From: Crocosphaera sp. UHCC 0190
GTDB taxonomy: Bacteria; Cyanobacteriota; Cyanobacteriia; Cyanobacteriales; Microcystaceae
Length of the DNA: 64,000 bases
Assembly (NCBI RefSeq): GCF_034932065.1
Contig: NZ_JAYGHP010000004.1
Coordinates: 1-64,000 of the forward strand
Reading direction: 5' to 3'
Part shown: positions 2,185-56,449 of the stretch, in pieces
Layout: every line of letters begins with the position of its first letter
Position numbering within the stretch: the stretch's first letter is position 1
Program-made: the position numbers and the translations under genes
The notes under the pieces: generated by a model
What the model saw: only the letters and a program-made list of their open reading frames with translations
Told to the model about the DNA's origin: nothing
Databases searched by the model: none

Positions 2185-3948
2185 TTATTTAAGATTGCGA
2201 TCGCTAGAAGATGTCTGATTAGTTGCGTCAGTATCATTAGCTGTAGAGACGTAAGAACTATCCATCCCCATCTCTTGTTGAATCTGTTCTAAAGTGTATC
2301 CTTTAAGTTGAGCAACGGCTAATTGTAAGGCAGCAACGCGAGTTTGTACACGGTTTTGTTGAGGCACTCGATCTAAGATATCGAACTTTCTCAAGCGTTC
2401 CTTAACTTTACCTTCTCCACCGACGATAAACACTTTTAAGTTCTTCGCGTAAGCATCTTCTACCATTTTTTCAATGGCTAAGGTAGCAGTCACCCCCAAC
2501 AAAGGCACATGGGTTAAATCAATAATCAGCATCTCATAGTTTTCGACAATGCTTTGACGCTGAGTAATCGCTTTAGCAGCACCAAAACTCATGGGGCCAG
2601 CTAAATCTAAGAGTAAAATACGTCCATTAGCTTCTCTCATTAAGTGTCTTGCTTCTTGAGTCGCCAAAGCATCATCATCATGACTATCAACAGCTTTAAC
2701 CCGATCTGCTTGAATATCAGCCAAACGTTGAATAGTTAAGATGTTAGCAACAAAAATCCCAATACCGACAGCGATAATTAAATCATAGAAGACGGTAAGC
2801 AACATCACCCCATACATGATGGCTGCGGCTTTCCAGGACAGATTATGAGCGCGTTTGAGGAATTTCCAGTCAATAATATCGATACCCACCTTAAAGGCAA
2901 TACCCGCTAATACTGCTAAGGGAATACTTTGGGTTAAAGGGGCAGCCCACAAGACAACAATTAACAGAATAAAGGCACGGGTTAAACCAGATAGGGCGGT
3001 AGTTCCCCCAGCTTGAATATTAACAACGGTTCCCATGGTGGCACCCGCACCAGGTAGGCCCCCACATAAACCAGAGACTAAGTTACCAAGTCCTTGACCA
3101 ATTAATTCTTTATCGGAGTTATGTTGAGTTTGGGTTAAACTATCGGCAATTACAGCCGTTAACAGGGCATCAATACACCCTAACATCCCTAACACTAAGC
3201 CATCAATAATCATGGTATTGACTTGCTCTAGGGTGAAGGTGGGCATGACTAAGGTAGGAAGTCCGGTGCTGAATTCAGGAATGGTTTTGATGCCACCACC
3301 AGAAAAGAAGACCAACGATAACACAGTACAACCAATTAAGGCTACTAATTGAGGGGGTACATATTTCTTGAGTTGGGCCGGCATCAAGAATAAAACCGCC
3401 ACCGTTAACAGCCCTAATGTTACTTCTCCCATGTGACTACTAATATGAGTCAAGACATCGGGGGCATTTTTCAAAGCTGCAACGACACCACCTTTGGGGT
3501 TGCTTGCCCCCAATAATGGACCAAATTGCAGAATTACTAGAATTAGCCCAATACCCGACATAAAGCCAGAAATAACGGTATAGGGCATCAAGGTAATATA
3601 TTTACCCAGTTTCAAGACCCCGAAGATGATTTGAAAAATACCTGCTAACATGACCACTGTAAAGGCCATGGCTAAGCCATTTTCAGGATCACTTGCCGTC
3701 ATTTTGGTGACAATGGCGGTCATAACAACCGTCATGGGCCCCGTCGGTTCAGAAATCAGGGTCGGTGTTCCCCCAAATAAGGCAGCAAAGAAACCGACTA
3801 AAACTGCACCCCATAAACCGGCCGCTGGCCCAGCACCAGAGGCAACCCCGAAGGCGAGGGCCATGGGTAGAGCAATAACGGTGGCAGTGATCCCACCAAA
3901 AATATCGCCCCTGACATTTCTAAAGTGAATACGATTGGTTATCTGCAT
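2185..3948 (-). CDS. bicA: BicA Na+-dependent bicarbonate transporter (SulP family)
   Basis: Low-affinity, high-flux Na+/HCO3- symporter of the plasma membrane, part of the CO2-concentrating mechanism. The protein (587 aa) opens with MQITNRIHFRNVRGD, very like known BicA. A SulP transmembrane domain follows (about residues 10-420, with TLISEPTGPMTVV and a GLGNLVSGLCGGLPGAGATMGT region). A cytosolic STAS domain lies at about 430-545 (GRILLLDLAGPMSFGAAKAI and a LIIDLTHVPLLGVTATLAIE-like segment). I chose the ATG at 3948 because it matches the conserved N-terminus; a TTG two codons upstream is in frame but less likely. It heads a leftward set with the antiporter and PsiE-like gene. An inverted repeat lies 60-95 bp upstream. 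Confidence 0.93.
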   Translation of the reverse strand: MQITNRIHFRNVRGDIFGGITATVIALPMALAFGVASGAGPAAGLWGAVLVGFFAALFGGTPTLISEPTGPMTVVMTAIVTKMTASDPENGLAMAFTVVMLAGIFQIIFGVLKLGKYITLMPYTVISGFMSGIGLILVILQFGPLLGASNPKGGVVAALKNAPDVLTHISSHMGEVTLGLLTVAVLFLMPAQLKKYVPPQLVALIGCTVLSLVFFSGGGIKTIPEFSTGLPTLVMPTFTLEQVNTMIIDGLVLGMLGCIDALLTAVIADSLTQTQHNSDKELIGQGLGNLVSGLCGGLPGAGATMGTVVNIQAGGTTALSGLTRAFILLIVVLWAAPLTQSIPLAVLAGIAFKVGIDIIDWKFLKRAHNLSWKAAAIMYGVMLLTVFYDLIIAVGIGIFVANILTIQRLADIQADRVKAVDSHDDDALATQEARHLMREANGRILLLDLAGPMSFGAAKAITQRQSIVENYEMLIIDLTHVPLLGVTATLAIEKMVEDAYAKNLKVFIVGGEGKVKERLRKFDILDRVPQQNRVQTRVAALQLAVAQLKGYTLEQIQQEMGMDSSYVSTANDTDATNQTSSSDRNLK

Positions 3949-4341: not shown

Positions 4342-5823
4342 TTAGGATTTTTTTCTGCGGGAAGCCAAACCACCTAAACCAGCGATCGCCAACAAACCTA
4401 ATGTTGTGGAAGGTTCGGGGACAGAGGTAGAATCAGATACAACGGTTCCATCGGGTAAAGTACCAGAAAAACCGTTCAAAGAACCGAGTTGATTTTGGTT
4501 AATATTGGCATTGAGTAGATTAACATTGACGAAATTCCCACCCATTAAATTTGCTCCGTCAAAATTGGAATCAGTGAGATCCGTATCGGTAAACGAACTG
4601 TCTCCCAGATTAGCTCCAGAAAAATTACTTCCAGGAATATTACTGTTTATCACTTCAACAGAGATTAAACTAGTATTGGTAAAATCAGGAGGAGTCGGTT
4701 CGTTTGCGTTAGTCGTGAAAAGACTATTTATACTCAGTGGGTCAATAACAATACCTACTTCCAAAGTTGCATTATCAATACGGGCGTAGTCAATTATCGC
4801 ATTAGAAAAGTTAGTTCCATTCAAGTTACTATCAGAAATCACAGCTAACAGTAGGTCAGATCCAGAAAAATTGGCATTAGTCAGGTTACTGCCAACATAG
4901 GCAGTGTTTCTAGCAACTGTATTAGAAAAGTTGGCATTGGTAAGATCGGCACGAGAAAAATTACTAAAGTTGACATTAGAATTAGCAAAGTTGGCTCCAG
5001 AGAGATCCGCTAGAATGTAACGCACCCCACCTAGTACACCATTATTAGAAAGGTTAGCGCCAGAAAGATTAGCTCGATCAAAGATAGCACCATTGATTAT
5101 AGCCAAGCCCAGATCAATGACTTCGGCGCGATTTAAGACAGCAAAAGAAGCATCGGAAAAATTCGCTCCAGCTAGATTAGCACCTACGAAGTTGGAACCA
5201 GCTAAGTTAATCCCTGTGAAGTCATAACCAGGAAGGTTAAACCCAGAGAAGTCCATCTCGACTAGCTTCGCTCCTGTCAGATCATTGTTTAGGAAAAAAT
5301 TCTCATTAATGTTGTCAAAGATAGGGCTAATAAAGAGTGCAGTTGGATCAGTTAGAACGGAAATAATATCAACATTAGATCCATTAAAAGTAGGACCGTT
5401 AAATACTGCATTCGTAAGGGTATTGTTAGAAAAATTAGTATTACTAAAATCACCAATCATAATTGAATCAGTGAAATTTGTATTGATGAAGGTCGATTGT
5501 TCAAACAGTCCAGTGGACTGGGCCTTAGTGAAGTTAGCGTTGGTAAAATTGGAGTTTATATAGATGGGAAAATCATCTATAACGTCCGAGAAATTAGCCC
5601 CTGTAAAGTCAGAATCAGAAACAAAATTTCCAGAAAATTGACGACCGGAAAAATCAGCCCCAGAAAGGTCACATCCTGAACAGAAACCAGTAGTTAAAAA
5701 CGTTTGCAGGTCATTTTCATTAAAGGCTTGTACTTGGGCTGAACCCGCAAATCCTAAAAGGAAAGTAATCGCTGAAATAGTTCCTATCTTCCGTGAATTG
5801 AGATTGTTAAAAGAATTGAGCAT
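4342..5823 (-). CDS. secreted pentapeptide-repeat protein with PEP-CTERM signal
   Basis: 493-residue protein. An N-terminal signal peptide is visible (hydrophobic core FLLGFAGSAQVQA, ending near residue 33). Most of the rest is a long run of A(N/D)FxxxxF-type pentapeptide repeats such as SGADFSGRQFSG and LAGANFSDAS, which fold as a right-handed beta-helix. The C-terminus carries a PEP-CTERM sorting signal: VPEPST, a hydrophobic segment and the basic end SRRKKS, recognised by exosortase systems. It should therefore be exported and cell-surface or matrix associated. Partner and function are unknown. An IS200/IS605-like end lies just after the stop codon, and the gene stands alone between bicA and the amidohydrolase gene. 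Confidence 0.88.
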   Translation of the reverse strand: MLNSFNNLNSRKIGTISAITFLLGFAGSAQVQAFNENDLQTFLTTGFCSGCDLSGADFSGRQFSGNFVSDSDFTGANFSDVIDDFPIYINSNFTNANFTKAQSTGLFEQSTFINTNFTDSIMIGDFSNTNFSNNTLTNAVFNGPTFNGSNVDIISVLTDPTALFISPIFDNINENFFLNNDLTGAKLVEMDFSGFNLPGYDFTGINLAGSNFVGANLAGANFSDASFAVLNRAEVIDLGLAIINGAIFDRANLSGANLSNNGVLGGVRYILADLSGANFANSNVNFSNFSRADLTNANFSNTVARNTAYVGSNLTNANFSGSDLLLAVISDSNLNGTNFSNAIIDYARIDNATLEVGIVIDPLSINSLFTTNANEPTPPDFTNTSLISVEVINSNIPGSNFSGANLGDSSFTDTDLTDSNFDGANLMGGNFVNVNLLNANINQNQLGSLNGFSGTLPDGTVVSDSTSVPEPSTTLGLLAIAGLGGLASRRKKS

Positions 5824-5894
5824 GATGGTTAATCCTGAAAAAAACTAAATGTGTTGTAAAGCATTGCTCCGAGGCAGAAGAAGGATAAATTAGA

Positions 5895-6989
5895 CTACCT
5901 TTTTAACTGTTGTAAATTGTTTGTCATATCCTCAATAGGCTGTTGCCCTTCGGTACTTAATACTTTTATCGTTATGTCTTTAGTTAACATCAGCTTGTTC
6001 AAGTCAACCATACGAATTGTTTGATCATCGTAGGTTTTCCAGTAAAAGCGTAGATTTTGAGGATCACGGGCTGTTGTTAGCATGGTATAGTCTGTCTCAT
6101 GTTCTGCTATTGCCACTCCAACAGGAATATCAAAGTTGTTAAGAATGTGGAATACTTGTTCAATCCCCTTTTCAATCGTTGCTGAAGGGACTGCTGTTTG
6201 GCTGAAAACGGCAGCACGGACAAACCTTGCAGGTGGGGTAAAATCACCCGGCATACCTAACATTCCACTCCCTTGACCGAATTGTGAGAAGGTTTCACCA
6301 ACGATGTCTATTGCTGGTACGTTGCGAGGATTTAGGGCAATATAGTTACGAAGATTCGTCATGTGCCAATCAAATGTGGGGGAATTTGTGATAACGCCGA
6401 GAGGGTTTTCATGAACGATGAGTTCACCCCCAACGGGTTCGATAACAATACTTTTTCCTGTTTGCTCATAAATCACATAGTGAAGCGTTAAGGGATCATG
6501 TTCAAGCACTTTTCCGTCTACTTCAGGAATTGATTTAATAATGGCAACTGCTTTATTTTTAATTGCATTTTTGACTTCTTCAACACTTTTAAAATTGGCT
6601 ACAATCCACCCGGTGAAGTCATGAGGGGCAAGTCCTTTACTTTGATTTTCTGGAGATAATGTTTGATACTCTGCATAGGAGGGAAAGTAGAAGATTCCAG
6701 CAGCTAGTCCTTCTTCGTTGAGTCCATCAAAACAATTAACATCTTCAAATTTTATGTCGGGACCCATATCTTTTGCCCATGCTCCAACGAAGGCGTATTT
6801 AGACTCATAAGTCATTCCTTTCTGAGTTAGTCCATCACCTACTTTGCTGGTGAAAGTATTCCCTGCCGAAGCATAGACAATATCTGTATTGATTTTAATA
6901 CCAAATTCAAGGGTTCGACCATGTACAATGGCTTTTGCTTCTTTGGTTTGGGGATTGGGATCAACTTTCAATCTTATTCCAGTACACAT
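5895..6989 (-). CDS. choloylglycine hydrolase family amidase (Ntn hydrolase)
   Basis: 364-residue enzyme of the linear amide C-N hydrolase family (penicillin V acylase / bile-salt hydrolase). The chain starts MCTGIRL, so removal of Met exposes Cys2 as the N-terminal nucleophile expected of this family. This also fixes the start codon. GRTLEFG (about 24-30) supplies the conserved Arg, and ITNSPTFDWHMTNLRNY (about 197-213) carries the conserved Asn region. No signal peptide is visible, so it is probably cytoplasmic. The true substrate in cyanobacteria is unknown; N-acyl amides such as acyl-homoserine lactones are possible for this family, but nothing here proves it. It stands divergent to the kinase gene at 7227. 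Confidence 0.87.
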   Translation of the reverse strand: MCTGIRLKVDPNPQTKEAKAIVHGRTLEFGIKINTDIVYASAGNTFTSKVGDGLTQKGMTYESKYAFVGAWAKDMGPDIKFEDVNCFDGLNEEGLAAGIFYFPSYAEYQTLSPENQSKGLAPHDFTGWIVANFKSVEEVKNAIKNKAVAIIKSIPEVDGKVLEHDPLTLHYVIYEQTGKSIVIEPVGGELIVHENPLGVITNSPTFDWHMTNLRNYIALNPRNVPAIDIVGETFSQFGQGSGMLGMPGDFTPPARFVRAAVFSQTAVPSATIEKGIEQVFHILNNFDIPVGVAIAEHETDYTMLTTARDPQNLRFYWKTYDDQTIRMVDLNKLMLTKDITIKVLSTEGQQPIEDMTNNLQQLKR

Positions 6990-11130: not shown

Positions 11131-11318
11131 GGTTCTACGGAACTTGCCATGTAAAATTAATAAATGAATACAGGCTAAAGCCTTATTCTATAAGCACAAA
11201 GGCTGTCTACACAGCCTAATTTTAAGCCTGGCTACCCAGGCTTAGTTCCTATAGCTTAACCCGATCGGGTTTAAGCCTGTAATTTTTAATCGTTTTACAT
11301 CCTAGGTTCGGTAGAGCC
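11131..11318 (+). mobile_element. 188-bp MITE, copy 1
   Basis: Nearly identical (about seven differences in 188 bp), in opposite orientation, to 45925-46112. The ends are imperfect inverted repeats: GGTTCTACGGAAC...ATGTAAAA on the left against GGCTCTACCGAAC...ATGTAAAA read from the right. The interior is full of small palindromes (GGCTGTCTACACAGCC, AAGCCTGG...CCAGGCTT). Flanking octamers ACATTTAT and ACATTAAT match 7 of 8, suggesting an 8-bp target duplication. It has no coding capacity. GG ends plus an 8-bp duplication would fit mobilisation by an ISL3-like transposase, which is inference. It sits between the hybrid kinase stop and the actin stop. Confidence 0.85.
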
Positions 11319-11329
11319 ACATTAATTAG

Positions 11330-12127
11330 CTATTGAAAACACTTGTCGTGAACAATCTTTGCCCCGTACTGTTGATACTCTTGCTTAGTAATCCAAGAAC
11401 CATTCTCATTAAGGAGCGGTGCCATCTTATCTCCTCCGCGCCAAGCTGCATTTTCCGGTTCATTTGCTTCAACAATTTTTACTGTTGCATTTGGTGGTGC
11501 TAATGCTGCAACTCGATCCCGAAGTTTTGTAGAAATTCCTGTATACATAGAACTGCTACCAGTGAGGATAATATTGGAATAAAGGGAGTGACGTACATCG
11601 CTATCGCAACGAAAAATTGAAGCATAAACTCTGTCGGCGATATTTGCAACTTCTTGGTCGTTAATCTTGTTTTCTTTTAAAGAGTATTGAATTATGGCAT
11701 GGGTGAAAGGAGAGCCTTGATAGCAAGGGACTATAACGAGACAAGAACCATTCTCCCCAAAGTTTATGACAGTTCCGTTAAGGTTTCCCCCATCATAAAG
11801 GGCTAATAGTTCCCTCATTATTAAATAAAATCCTGATACCTTGAATGTCTCGAAGAAAATTTGCGTCATTTTTTCTCGATTGACTTCTGAGTTGAGAGGG
11901 GGTTCAGTAATAATGATAGAATGCTGGGATGGATCGACACCTAGTTGCTTAAAGGTATGAGATAAAACATCCTTCATACCATCCCAGTTTGTCACCATAC
12001 CATAAGCATCCATTGGAGCTTTCGATGTAACAGAATTAGTCGGGAAGACGACCGTAGGCGTATCACCACTTGATAACCCTGCTCTAGTATAATCAGGTTT
12101 ACTGTCGATAACGATCGGTGAGTTCAT
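11330..12127 (-). CDS. eukaryotic-type mini-actin lacking subdomains 2 and 4
   Basis: 265 residues clearly derived from eukaryotic actin, not MreB or ParM. Residues 83-95 (NREKMTQIFFETF) and 44-50 (MVTNWDG), and the C-terminus WITKQEY (245-251) with IVHDKCF (258-264), are near-identical to actin. The protein is about 110 residues shorter than actin (375). About 32 residues covering the D-loop/subdomain 2 are absent between VFPT (27-30) and MVTNWD. About 80-85 residues covering subdomain 4 are absent between HAI (143-145) and FRCDSDVR (172-179). Catalytic Gln137 of actin is Arg105 here and Asp154 is Asn122. The first phosphate loop is SKPD instead of NGSG, so ATP binding is probably lost. ActM of Microcystis aeruginosa PCC 7806 is the known precedent for cyanobacterial actin. 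It is divergent from a response regulator gene, with shared 9-bp repeats between them. It is an intact reading frame with host-like codon use. Confidence 0.9.
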   Translation of the reverse strand: MNSPIVIDSKPDYTRAGLSSGDTPTVVFPTNSVTSKAPMDAYGMVTNWDGMKDVLSHTFKQLGVDPSQHSIIITEPPLNSEVNREKMTQIFFETFKVSGFYLIMRELLALYDGGNLNGTVINFGENGSCLVIVPCYQGSPFTHAIIQYSLKENKINDQEVANIADRVYASIFRCDSDVRHSLYSNIILTGSSSMYTGISTKLRDRVAALAPPNATVKIVEANEPENAAWRGGDKMAPLLNENGSWITKQEYQQYGAKIVHDKCFQ

Positions 12128-33589: not shown

Positions 33590-34162
33590 TTAGGTTTGTT
33601 TGTTATTCTTAGAAGCTAATAAACCTGCGCCTACCACAAGGAAACCAAACACAGTGACAGGTTCGGGAGTGGAGGGCATTTCGATTACTTGGCTAGAGGT
33701 TAGGCTGTCATTTGTAACAAAAGTGGCACTGGCAGGAATGGGAGAACCATTTTGAAATAAGGCTTGAACTACACCAGATCCAAAGCCAAAACCAGAGGAA
33801 CTCAATCCCCAATCTTGTCCAGTTGTAGTATTCGTATTTCCTCCTAGCACAAATGTCTCCGTGGTGGTGTCGAAGTTAAAATTAAACGAACCCCCGTCAC
33901 TGGGTTGCCAAGTTCCTAAAGAAGTCGAATTCTGAAAAAATTCAATCATAAAAGAGTCCAGGGAACTACCCGTAATTGCACCAGTACCGATTAATACATC
34001 ATCATAGCTAAACATCCCTGTCATGGTATAGCCACCCCCACCCGTCCAGTTAATGTTAAAGGAGATAGCATGGACGGGGGAAGGCGTGACCCCTTCAGAC
34101 AACATAATCGAACCAGCCAATCCGATTATGGGCAAGAGAGTGGTTAAGGTGTTTTTTCTCAT
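33590..34162 (-). CDS. secreted PEP-CTERM protein
   Basis: 190 residues. The N-terminal signal peptide (about 1-32, ending PSPVHA) and the C-terminal PEP-CTERM signal (STPEPVTVFGF, hydrophobic helix, SKNNKQT) mark it as exported and sorted. The mature region is Gly/Ser/Thr/Asn rich and probably a beta-sandwich; I do not recognise a catalytic motif. Extracellular matrix or surface role is likely by family. It is read convergently with aroF. Confidence 0.82.
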   Translation of the reverse strand: MRKNTLTTLLPIIGLAGSIMLSEGVTPSPVHAISFNINWTGGGGYTMTGMFSYDDVLIGTGAITGSSLDSFMIEFFQNSTSLGTWQPSDGGSFNFNFDTTTETFVLGGNTNTTTGQDWGLSSSGFGFGSGVVQALFQNGSPIPASATFVTNDSLTSSQVIEMPSTPEPVTVFGFLVVGAGLLASKNNKQT

Positions 34163-55199: not shown

Positions 55200-55250
55200 G
55201 ACATACTCCCAGCACTAAGTCGGAGTACCGACTATAGTGTGGGCTTCTTA
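55200..55250 (-). mobile_element. right end of TnpB element with guide-RNA-like hairpin
   Basis: A long imperfect hairpin (55208-55243: CCCA..CACTA with TAGTG.TGGG around AGTCGG-AGTA-CCGACT) overlaps the tnpB stop codon. In IS200/IS605 elements this place holds the transposon right end and the 3' scaffold of the TnpB guide RNA (reRNA), whose guide is the flanking sequence just beyond the end. It would read into about 55185-55205 on the minus strand. Confidence 0.6.
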
Positions 55251-56449
55251 CCAACTCCATCTATCGATTCGGATACTCGGTAAGCTTTAAGAACGGAATG
55301 CCCTACCGCCCTATATTTGATATTGATAGCCGCATTAAAATCCCGATCAATTGTTAATTGACAATGGGGACAAGAATGAACTCTATCTTTCAATTCTTTG
55401 GGAACTTTAACCCCGCATCCAGAGCAATCTTGTGTTGTACCATTAGGATTTACTTCGATTACCAACTGACCAGCTTTTTCAGCTTTCTCCTTGAGAATTG
55501 AAATAAATTGTCCCCATCCAGCATCATTAACACTTAAACTCAGTCTGCTTTTAGCTAATCCCTTTATGTTTAAATTTTCAATGGCTATAACTTCATTTTT
55601 TGCCAGTAAATGATTAGCTGTTTTAAAATGAAAGTCTTTTCTTTTATTGGCTACCTTCTGATGAAGTTTTGCCAATCTTTTAACTGCTTTGCGTCTATTT
55701 TTAGAACCTTTTTGCTGACGACTAACTCCCTTTTGAACTACCTTTAGCTGTTTTAATAACTTTCGATAGTGTTGGGGAATAGTTACATTTTCTCCCTCAC
55801 TGTCTACCAAAAATTCCTTTAATCCCAAATCAATACCTAGAGTGTTATTTAAACCAGGTTGAATATTAGGAGTAAAGTTAGGTACAGATTTATCTTCTAG
55901 AGATAAAATCACATACCAACCGTCAGCTTTACGGACAATAGTAGCTGTTTTAATTAGAAAACCACTAGGTAAAGGACGATGTTGAATCAGTTTTATCTTC
56001 CCAATAATAGGAAGATTAATATATTTTCCCTCTAAACAATTTTGTTTAACTTGAGGGAAAGTAAAAGAATGATAACGCCCTTCTCCTTTAAATCTTGGTC
56101 TTCCTGAACGCTTACCATTACTATCACCTTTTAGCCATTTTTGAAAAGTAAAATCAACCCGCTTAATACAGTCTTGTAACACTTGAGACTGTATATTTTT
56201 ATAATCAGGAAATAAGGCTTTAGTATTAATTAAATCCTTTTTCTGACTATAATAATCAGGCTTTTCTTTTAACTCAGGTAAATGGCATATTAAAGGACAA
56301 GAATTAACATCACAACGATTACGTTCCCACCAATTAAAACGTTCTGCTAGACGATAGTTGTACTGCCACCTTAAAAGGCTCAGCCAACTGTCAAATCTGG
56401 CAGTTTGTTCAGGAGTTGGGCGTAATCGATACTGATATGCTAGTCTCAT
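55232..56449 (-). CDS. tnpB: TnpB RNA-guided nuclease of IS200/IS605 family
   Basis: 405 residues. N-terminal helix-turn-helix/WED-like part (RLAYQYRLRPTPEQTARFD), RuvC motif I with the catalytic Asp in LGIDLGLKEFLVD (about 207), RuvC II Glu in AIENLNIKGLAKS (about 295), a zinc finger CSGCG...CPHC and RuvC III Asp in DRDFNAAINIKYRAVG. All catalytic residues are present. TnpB cuts DNA guided by a short RNA from the element end. No tnpA is next to it, so the element is non-autonomous. It stands between pyrG and efp. Confidence 0.93.
   Translation of the reverse strand: MRLAYQYRLRPTPEQTARFDSWLSLLRWQYNYRLAERFNWWERNRCDVNSCPLICHLPELKEKPDYYSQKKDLINTKALFPDYKNIQSQVLQDCIKRVDFTFQKWLKGDSNGKRSGRPRFKGEGRYHSFTFPQVKQNCLEGKYINLPIIGKIKLIQHRPLPSGFLIKTATIVRKADGWYVILSLEDKSVPNFTPNIQPGLNNTLGIDLGLKEFLVDSEGENVTIPQHYRKLLKQLKVVQKGVSRQQKGSKNRRKAVKRLAKLHQKVANKRKDFHFKTANHLLAKNEVIAIENLNIKGLAKSRLSLSVNDAGWGQFISILKEKAEKAGQLVIEVNPNGTTQDCSGCGVKVPKELKDRVHSCPHCQLTIDRDFNAAINIKYRAVGHSVLKAYRVSESIDGVGKKPTL

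Follow-up and report, generated by a model that had tools for sequence, protein, structure and literature searches.

What remains of an actin from which subdomains 2 and 4 have been removed? Actin is among the most conserved of eukaryotic proteins, and the ATP clamp formed by its four subdomains is generally regarded as a unit that cannot be divided. Subdomains 2 and 4 give the pointed-end face and the D-loop for stacking, and they close the nucleotide cleft. The question is raised by a gene of the cyanobacterium Crocosphaera sp. UHCC 0190, found in the stretch of DNA analysed here (contig NZ_JAYGHP010000004.1, positions 1 to 64,000; these 64,000 nucleotides are called the window below). A preliminary description of this DNA had claimed that the gene encodes, in an intact frame, a eukaryotic-type actin reduced to subdomains 1 and 3. 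In this report, we found that the alignment gaps, the Pfam and PDB matches and the predicted fold all bear out that claim.

The gene lies on the minus strand at 11330-12127; it starts with ATG, has no internal stops, and encodes 265 amino acids before the stop codon. The protein matches the Pfam Actin family (PF00022) with 189.6 bits (E 9.4e-56), against a curated cut-off of 27. By comparison, Salactin scores 15.8 bits and Volactin 13.2 bits, both under the cut-off. Further, 159 distinct PDB sequences match the protein at E <= 0.001 (best E 3.1e-54), and the best 60 of these 159 are actins throughout. To judge from these matches, the protein is a eukaryotic-type actin, as against MreB, ParM or salactin. 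Assembly contamination as its source was rejected: the gene sits on a contig of 337,811 bases, and the genome (4.43 Mb in 38 contigs) is 99.96% complete and 0% contaminated. The parts of the gene, and one element beyond it, are as follows.

11330-12127, minus strand: whole two-subdomain actin gene, 265 amino acids and stop (open reading frame, PDB and Pfam matches)
12041-12124, minus strand: first piece of subdomain 1, residues 2-29, with the former phosphate loop S-K-P-D; 26/28 identical in cyanobacterium ESFC-1
12017-12040, minus strand: eight-residue linker replacing subdomain 2, the D-loop subdomain (actin 34-62 gone)
11792-12016, minus strand: middle piece of subdomain 1, residues 38-112, full length
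11678-11791, minus strand: first piece of subdomain 3, residues 113-150, second phosphate loop degenerate
11654-11677, minus strand: eight-residue linker replacing subdomain 4 (actin 188-268 gone)
11450-11653, minus strand: second piece of subdomain 3, residues 159-226
11336-11449, minus strand: C-terminal piece of subdomain 1, residues 227-264, ending in HDKCF(Q)
11200-11217, minus strand: putative terminator hairpin, about 110 bases past the stop codon (weak; from a comparison with shuffles)

A 375-residue cyanobacterial actin (L015) served as the ruler for gaps and residue numbers. Within its positions 5-375, the only gaps of at least five residues are 34-62 (29 residues) and 188-268 (81 residues). 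The preliminary description had put these losses at about 32 and 80-85 residues; both losses are real, and the second estimate stands, but the D-loop gap is the smaller 29. With subdomain 2 taken by us as actin 33-69 and subdomain 4 as 181-269, the remnants are 8/37 and 8/89 residues, respectively. The canonical four-subdomain architecture is absent, in that subdomains 2 and 4 are not present. The rest is complete: the three pieces of subdomain 1 retain 28/28 (actin 5-32), 75/75 and 38/38 residues, and those of subdomain 3 have 38 (36 in the ruler) and 68/68. An AlphaFold2 monomer model, made with an 18-sequence alignment of the Crocosphaera protein and its relatives, has a pLDDT of 92.7 and a pTM of 0.89. 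It superposes on subdomains 1 and 3 of a solved actin (VIA-align) with a Z of 33.7 and 1.8 Å over 259/265 residues, model 2-264 lying on actin 5-375 at 39% identity; because the alignment included full-length homologues, the predicted fold is partly inherited from them. A second actin without subdomains 2 and 4, from Planktothrix, models likewise (pLDDT 89.9; Z 35.6; 1.2-1.5 Å over 252-255 residues).

The nucleotide site has not survived the trimming. We take the ATP-site positions of actin to be the phosphate loops, Q137, H161, 210/213/214, G301-G302-T303 and K336. The first phosphate loop, at 12-15, is S-K-P-D in place of NGSG. Position 137 is Arg, 154 Asn, 157 Glu, 158 Asn, 161 Val, 302-303 Ser-Ser and 336 Glu, and the adenine contacts 210/213/214 fall inside the missing subdomain 4; D11, G156 and G301 are retained. 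Three of these substitutions (Gln137 to Arg, Asp154 to Asn, NGSG to SKPD) had been named in the preliminary description, and all three hold in ruler numbering. Judged by these positions, the canonical ATPase motif set of actin is lost. Actin-type filament growth and ATP cycling are not expected, because subdomains 2 and 4 supply the stacking face and the closure of the cleft.

A close counterpart exists in the filamentous cyanobacterium ESFC-1 (genome G165). Its copy is 59% identical to that of Crocosphaera and has the same gaps, 34-62 and 188-268, to the residue; the two copies form one branch with support of 100/100. Their divergence evidently postdates a common deletion. When a 12-kb Crocosphaera stretch was compared by blastn with the 12.8-kb ESFC-1 locus, actin alone was in common (69% over 771 columns). 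The identity of the pair is unevenly spread, at 107/140 in subdomain 1 and 41/102 in subdomain 3 (Fisher p 1.4e-8). This difference of 0.36 compares with a mean of 0.00 and a maximum of 0.177 among 231 pairs of 22 full-length actins, and dN is 0.143 in subdomain 1 and 0.492 in subdomain 3. Within subdomain 1, the N-terminal 28 positions stand out, with 26/28 identical and a dN of 0.03 (dS undefined), although most of the phosphate loop there is derived. Indeed, 53 residues common to both copies are rare (<= 10%) in the 22 full-length actins, and S-K-P-D-Y is included among them. This pattern suggests that the old phosphate loop was rebuilt and then frozen, having probably acquired a new task.

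The same contrast between subdomains is shown by three actins without subdomain 4 from the class of a Leptospiraceae metagenome-assembled genome (MAG), at 109/141 vs 39/98, 83/141 vs 21/97 and 82/141 vs 18/97. It is absent when trimmed and full-length actins are compared for Planktothrix (91/141 and 63/100), for the cyanobacterial genome G229 (113/141 and 80/104) and for Saprospiraceae (56/137 and 43/104), and two copies that lack subdomain 2 alone show the opposite (94/140 in subdomain 1, 85/102 in subdomain 3). The notion that subdomain 3 is relaxed in every trimmed actin was dropped for this reason. In the Crocosphaera clade, however, of which two members were found, giving one pair to compare, the best-kept part is, by residue identity, subdomain 1 and not the pair of subdomains 1 and 3; purifying selection, too, is strongest there.

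We consider it most likely, with a probability of roughly 0.55, that the Crocosphaera protein acts in the cytosol as a binding module centred on subdomain 1, independently of ATP and without forming filaments. This reading draws on the sequence and the model. A eukaryotic-type actin gene would have entered a bacterium, subdomains 2 and 4 would have been lost in frame before the Crocosphaera and ESFC-1 gene lineages split, and the trimmed gene would then have been retained as a working protein. Such a protein would lack both the nucleotide clamp and the pointed-end surface on which actins stack. The interaction would fall to subdomain 1, including the first phosphate loop in its rebuilt form, and subdomain 3 would be mainly a scaffold. 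Its partner would be neither another actin nor a profilin of the Crocosphaera genome.

Three other explanations compete with such a binding module. The one to which we give least credence is that the gene is a decaying remnant in the course of being lost. Carriers are sparse, any such actin being found in 13/388 genomes drawn from the order; one relative (G179) has a cut actin copy; and in subdomain 3 dN is 0.49 vs a dS of 0.94, which could betray early decay. Yet the frame has stayed open in both Crocosphaera and ESFC-1 since their common deletion, and two more double-trimmed copies exist in other genomes. Over the whole gene, the pair has a dN of 0.28, a dS of 1.29 and a dN/dS of 0.22 by NG86 (bootstrap 0.135-0.34); this ratio comes from one pair whose dS is high (2.47 for subdomain 1, with no defined value for the first piece of it), and YN00 gave no estimate. 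When neutral point substitutions were simulated to the same distance, both frames stayed open in 0/2000 runs, and the highest identity reached was 53% vs the 59% observed. A pseudogene or a recent deletion is thus unlikely, because the ESFC-1 copy has the same gaps and has diverged under purifying selection. The preliminary description had named two results that would speak against it: a predicted fold that does not lie on actin subdomains 1 and 3, and a full-length allele in close relatives beside signs of recent deletion or pseudogene evolution (dN/dS near 1) in this copy. The fold superposes, and ESFC-1 has the same deletions at a ratio far below 1; the comparison covered a single genome of the Crocosphaera genus (1/1), and a sister strain may still carry a full-length allele.

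The other two explanations turn on binding faces. ActM, the actin of Microcystis aeruginosa PCC 7806, makes sheets and a hollow shell together with the profilin PfnM (PMC3254629). An unlikely, though better, rival is that the two-subdomain actin assembles itself, independently of ATP, into sheets or a shell in which subdomains 1 and 3 touch side by side, much like the ActM shell in simpler form. That both of these subdomains are of full length agrees with this, as does the double-trimmed actin of Planktothrix, which adjoins a profilin gene (115/139 residues identical to the Microcystis profilin) and keeps 17/20 positions of the profilin face (p 0.04). The Crocosphaera genome, however, has no profilin at E <= 1 (PF00235), and its actin matches the ruler at only 10 of the 20 positions that we take to be profilin contacts (vs 96/224 elsewhere; p 0.35). 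Further, subdomain 3, which would carry the barbed-end contacts, is the least constrained part. The third explanation is a mimic that acts on the actin of a eukaryotic grazer or neighbour, for example by binding the pointed ends of its filaments or, once the cell has been ingested, by titrating its actin-binding proteins. The retained half is the barbed-end half, and trimmed actins of the Leptospiraceae-MAG class have signal-peptide-like leaders, some of them looking exported. We nonetheless regard such mimicry as improbable: the Crocosphaera protein has no leader (it starts MNSPIVID), and the faces to which eukaryotic proteins would bind are degraded, whereas a mimic should have kept them.

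Two functions suggested in the preliminary description have lost ground by the same evidence. One was to cap or accompany the actin filaments of its own cell. The protein is unlikely to do so, because the genome contains neither profilin (E <= 1) nor a second PF00022 match at E <= 0.001, the two pieces found being this one gene. The other was the binding of ordinary actin-binding proteins, which is weakened by the 10/20 profilin face and by changes at cleft positions 341, 345 and 355.

Profilin itself is patchily distributed among the organisms with eukaryotic-type actins. It scores over the cut-off in 2/13 carriers of the order, a Microcystis genome (G029) and Planktothrix (G272), and the ESFC-1 genome is without it. 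It does so likewise in 2/13 other carriers, both of the Polyangia type (G671, G676), with one weak match in G675. The profilin face matches the ruler at 9/20 positions in ESFC-1 (p 0.45) and 9/20 in cyanobacterial genome G149 (p 0.09), and at all 20 in two Polyangia-type copies (L037 and L044, from the profilin-bearing genomes G671 and G676; enriched, p 0.0004 and 0.001). On these few numbers, trimmed actins accompanied by profilin have preserved the face well, and the Crocosphaera lineage has preserved it poorly. A simple rule that the face is kept wherever profilin is kept was dropped, since Microcystis G029, which has profilin, retains 14/20 (p 0.39) and Microcoleus, without it, 17/20.

The Crocosphaera actin is, as far as sequence comparison can tell, one of a series of trimmed eukaryotic-type actins in bacteria. 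Of 388 genomes drawn from its order, 13 carry an actin of this type. Four carriers lack subdomains 2 and 4 (Crocosphaera, ESFC-1, Planktothrix PCC 11201 and G149), one lacks subdomain 4 (G229), seven have full-length actins (subdomain 2 being 27/37 residues in two of these, L017 and L018), and one copy is cut short (G179). When the order was drawn again, 12/363 genomes matched and no carrier was added to the list; a draw of the phylum gave matches in 3/386, including a marginal one in G617 (E 6e-5, within a frame of 12,803 residues). Within the family of Crocosphaera, 8/50 genomes match at E <= 10, and only the Crocosphaera genome and G029 at E <= 0.001; matches were found in 4/13 genomes of the ESFC-1 family and 3/61 of the family of G229. 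Beyond the phylum, 5/317 genomes match in the class of a Polyangia MAG, where the copy of G676 (L044) lacks subdomain 2, and 7/48 in the class of the Leptospiraceae MAG.

Genomes of 84,980 species, one per species, were also scanned through alignments, and 29 loci emerged from 113 stretches; the scan used two short patterns and was not exhaustive, so these counts are lower bounds. Eighteen loci are of full length, including two archaeal ones (Baldrarchaeota). Two lack subdomains 2 and 4 (ESFC-1, Planktothrix), two lack subdomain 4 (Saprospiraceae and Leptospiraceae MAGs), and three lack subdomain 2 (the Polyangia MAG and two MAGs titled “bacterium”, grouped with 100/99). In these three (L037, L038, L044), residues 38-67 are missing and nothing else. 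The remainder comprises two broken frames that resemble eukaryotic contaminants and two fragments at contig ends. A protein-only scan of genome contigs gave no confirmed loci.

The class of the Leptospiraceae MAG holds further forms: three copies without subdomain 4, four that consist of subdomains 1 and 2 only, and one fragment at a contig edge. The four short copies (L103, L104, L106 and L107, in G1013, G1035, G1005 and G1015) have 201-206 amino acids, and actin 136-334 is missing from them. All seven complete copies bear N-terminal extensions of 26-52 residues (starts chosen by hand) that contain a hydrophobic stretch and are, by eye, signal-peptide-like. In G1015 (L110), the short actin (2574-3179, minus strand) and an actin without subdomain 4 (5299-6423, plus strand) lie about 2.1 kb apart, with a metallophosphoesterase-like ORF (by eye) between them. 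Seven reduced forms, namely four copies from this class and those of ESFC-1, Planktothrix and G149, all exceed the Pfam Actin cut-off. The G149 copy (L022; L111 4984-5733) has 249 amino acids and 26% identity to that of Crocosphaera, and is followed by a transposase-like ORF (by eye). The cut actin of G179 (L021, C13:68461-68745) ends after about 174 residues beside another such ORF (again by eye) and resembles a disrupted full-length copy.

The trimmed actins of ESFC-1, Planktothrix PCC 11201, G149, G229, the Leptospiraceae MAG class, Polyangia and Saprospiraceae thus resemble the Crocosphaera protein in that whole subdomains are absent in frame and subdomain 1 is retained. They differ from it in which subdomains are missing and where the gaps end; only ESFC-1 matches exactly. 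A broader generalization, to which we lend slightly less than even odds, is that bacterial eukaryotic-type actins have repeatedly been trimmed around a never-lost subdomain 1 (without 2, 4, 2 and 4, or 3 and 4). They would survive as small binding proteins that are neither ATPases nor filaments, cytosolic in cyanobacteria and apparently exported in the Leptospiraceae relatives. If this is true, actin can leave its filament and ATPase roles and yet stay under selection, and the Crocosphaera gene is a clean example.

How often did such losses happen? Trees were built from 245 alignment columns that cover subdomains 1 and 3, and we infer the donor and the direction of transfer, because no certified eukaryotic actin is included in them. 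Several sequences were kept outside the trees: L053 and L059 (broken frames, probably eukaryotic introns), L058 and L062 (contig ends), L021 (cut gene), L063 and L080 (weak), L086 (second copy of G781), L105 (contig edge), and duplicate locus ids. The G229 copy, which lacks subdomain 4, groups with two full-length Verrucomicrobiota MAG actins (100/99, 100/100). In AU tests, whose clades were named after inspection of the tree, a clade of the G229, Crocosphaera, ESFC-1 and Planktothrix copies was rejected (p 2.5e-8), as was a single clade of all seven subdomain-4-less sequences in the tree (p 5e-6). Because these joint clades were rejected, subdomain 4 has evidently been lost at least twice. 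Monophyly of the four double-trimmed copies is absent from the best tree but is not rejected, with a p-AU of 0.478, and neither is a clade of the Crocosphaera/ESFC-1 pair with the three subdomain-2-less copies, with a p-AU of 0.485. On these values, we dropped the ideas that the four double-trimmed actins arose by separate losses and that the Polyangia type lost subdomain 2 on its own. The placement of the G149 copy, at the end of a very long branch, is unsure.

Planktothrix PCC 11201 (L035 5983-6756) and its congener G229 (L112 4799-5710) share a locus with recN-, Uma2-, HigA- and restriction-like genes (by eye), in which segments of more than 100 bases are 92-98% identical. The actins at this locus belong to different clades (joint clade rejected, p 3.6e-5), and both are without subdomain 4.

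Loss of subdomain 4 has a precedent in AlfA, a ParM-like, plasmid-borne, filament-forming actin without subdomain IIB, i.e., 4. Unlike the Crocosphaera protein, AlfA is not of the eukaryotic type, and it has subdomain 2. Among the closest known systems is ActM/PfnM, likewise built on a eukaryotic-type actin in a cyanobacterium; ActM, compared here by description, polymerizes into filaments stained by phalloidin and has profilin as its partner (PMC3254629). A full-length relative, that of G029 (same contig as Microcystis aeruginosa LEGE 91341), occurs in the family of the Crocosphaera genome. The Crocosphaera protein is unlike ActM in having neither subdomains 2 and 4 nor the ATP motifs, and in coming from a genome without profilin. 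Two further bacterial proteins, BARP from Haliangium ochraceum and an actin from Candidatus Uab amorphum, are grouped with the actins of eukaryotes and Asgard archaea (PMC6906331); the passages on which we base the comparison with them do not mention missing subdomains. Among the matches listed in the open-licence PMC literature, titles and the starts of abstracts contain no description of actins without subdomains 2 and 4. The family is known from ActM and BARP, and the form without these subdomains appears to be new.

The 2012 paper states that ActM occurs solely in one Microcystis strain and that PfnM is the only known prokaryotic profilin homologue (PMC3254629). Our surveys suggest that bacterial eukaryotic-type actins are more widespread than that. 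Full-length examples in Thiosymbion, Thiobius and Thiodictyon records (L039, L045, L060) are seemingly real bacterial genes, and the gene of one such sulfur bacterium, an ectosymbiotic Thiosymbion, sits on a contig of 2 Mb. A selected two-subdomain actin and its differently trimmed relatives amount to natural deletion experiments on which part of actin does what.

The Crocosphaera gene has two-component signalling genes on its flanks. Carriage by a mobile element was considered and set aside, since plasmid and phage records gave 0 matches at E 1e-5; one viral contig matched the actin query, with a full-length actin. An Rfam search for conserved RNA gave no match. One promoter-like site was found near the gene (mean of 3.6 in shuffles), and the region has four terminator-like sites vs a mean of 1.1 (weak). 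Elsewhere in the window, the proteins at 4342-5823 and 33590-34162 have C-terminal ends that look by eye like PEP-CTERM-type sorting signals, the former being pentapeptide-repeat-like, and a TnpB-like ORF with a zinc-finger C-terminus (by eye) lies at 55232-56449 on the minus strand.
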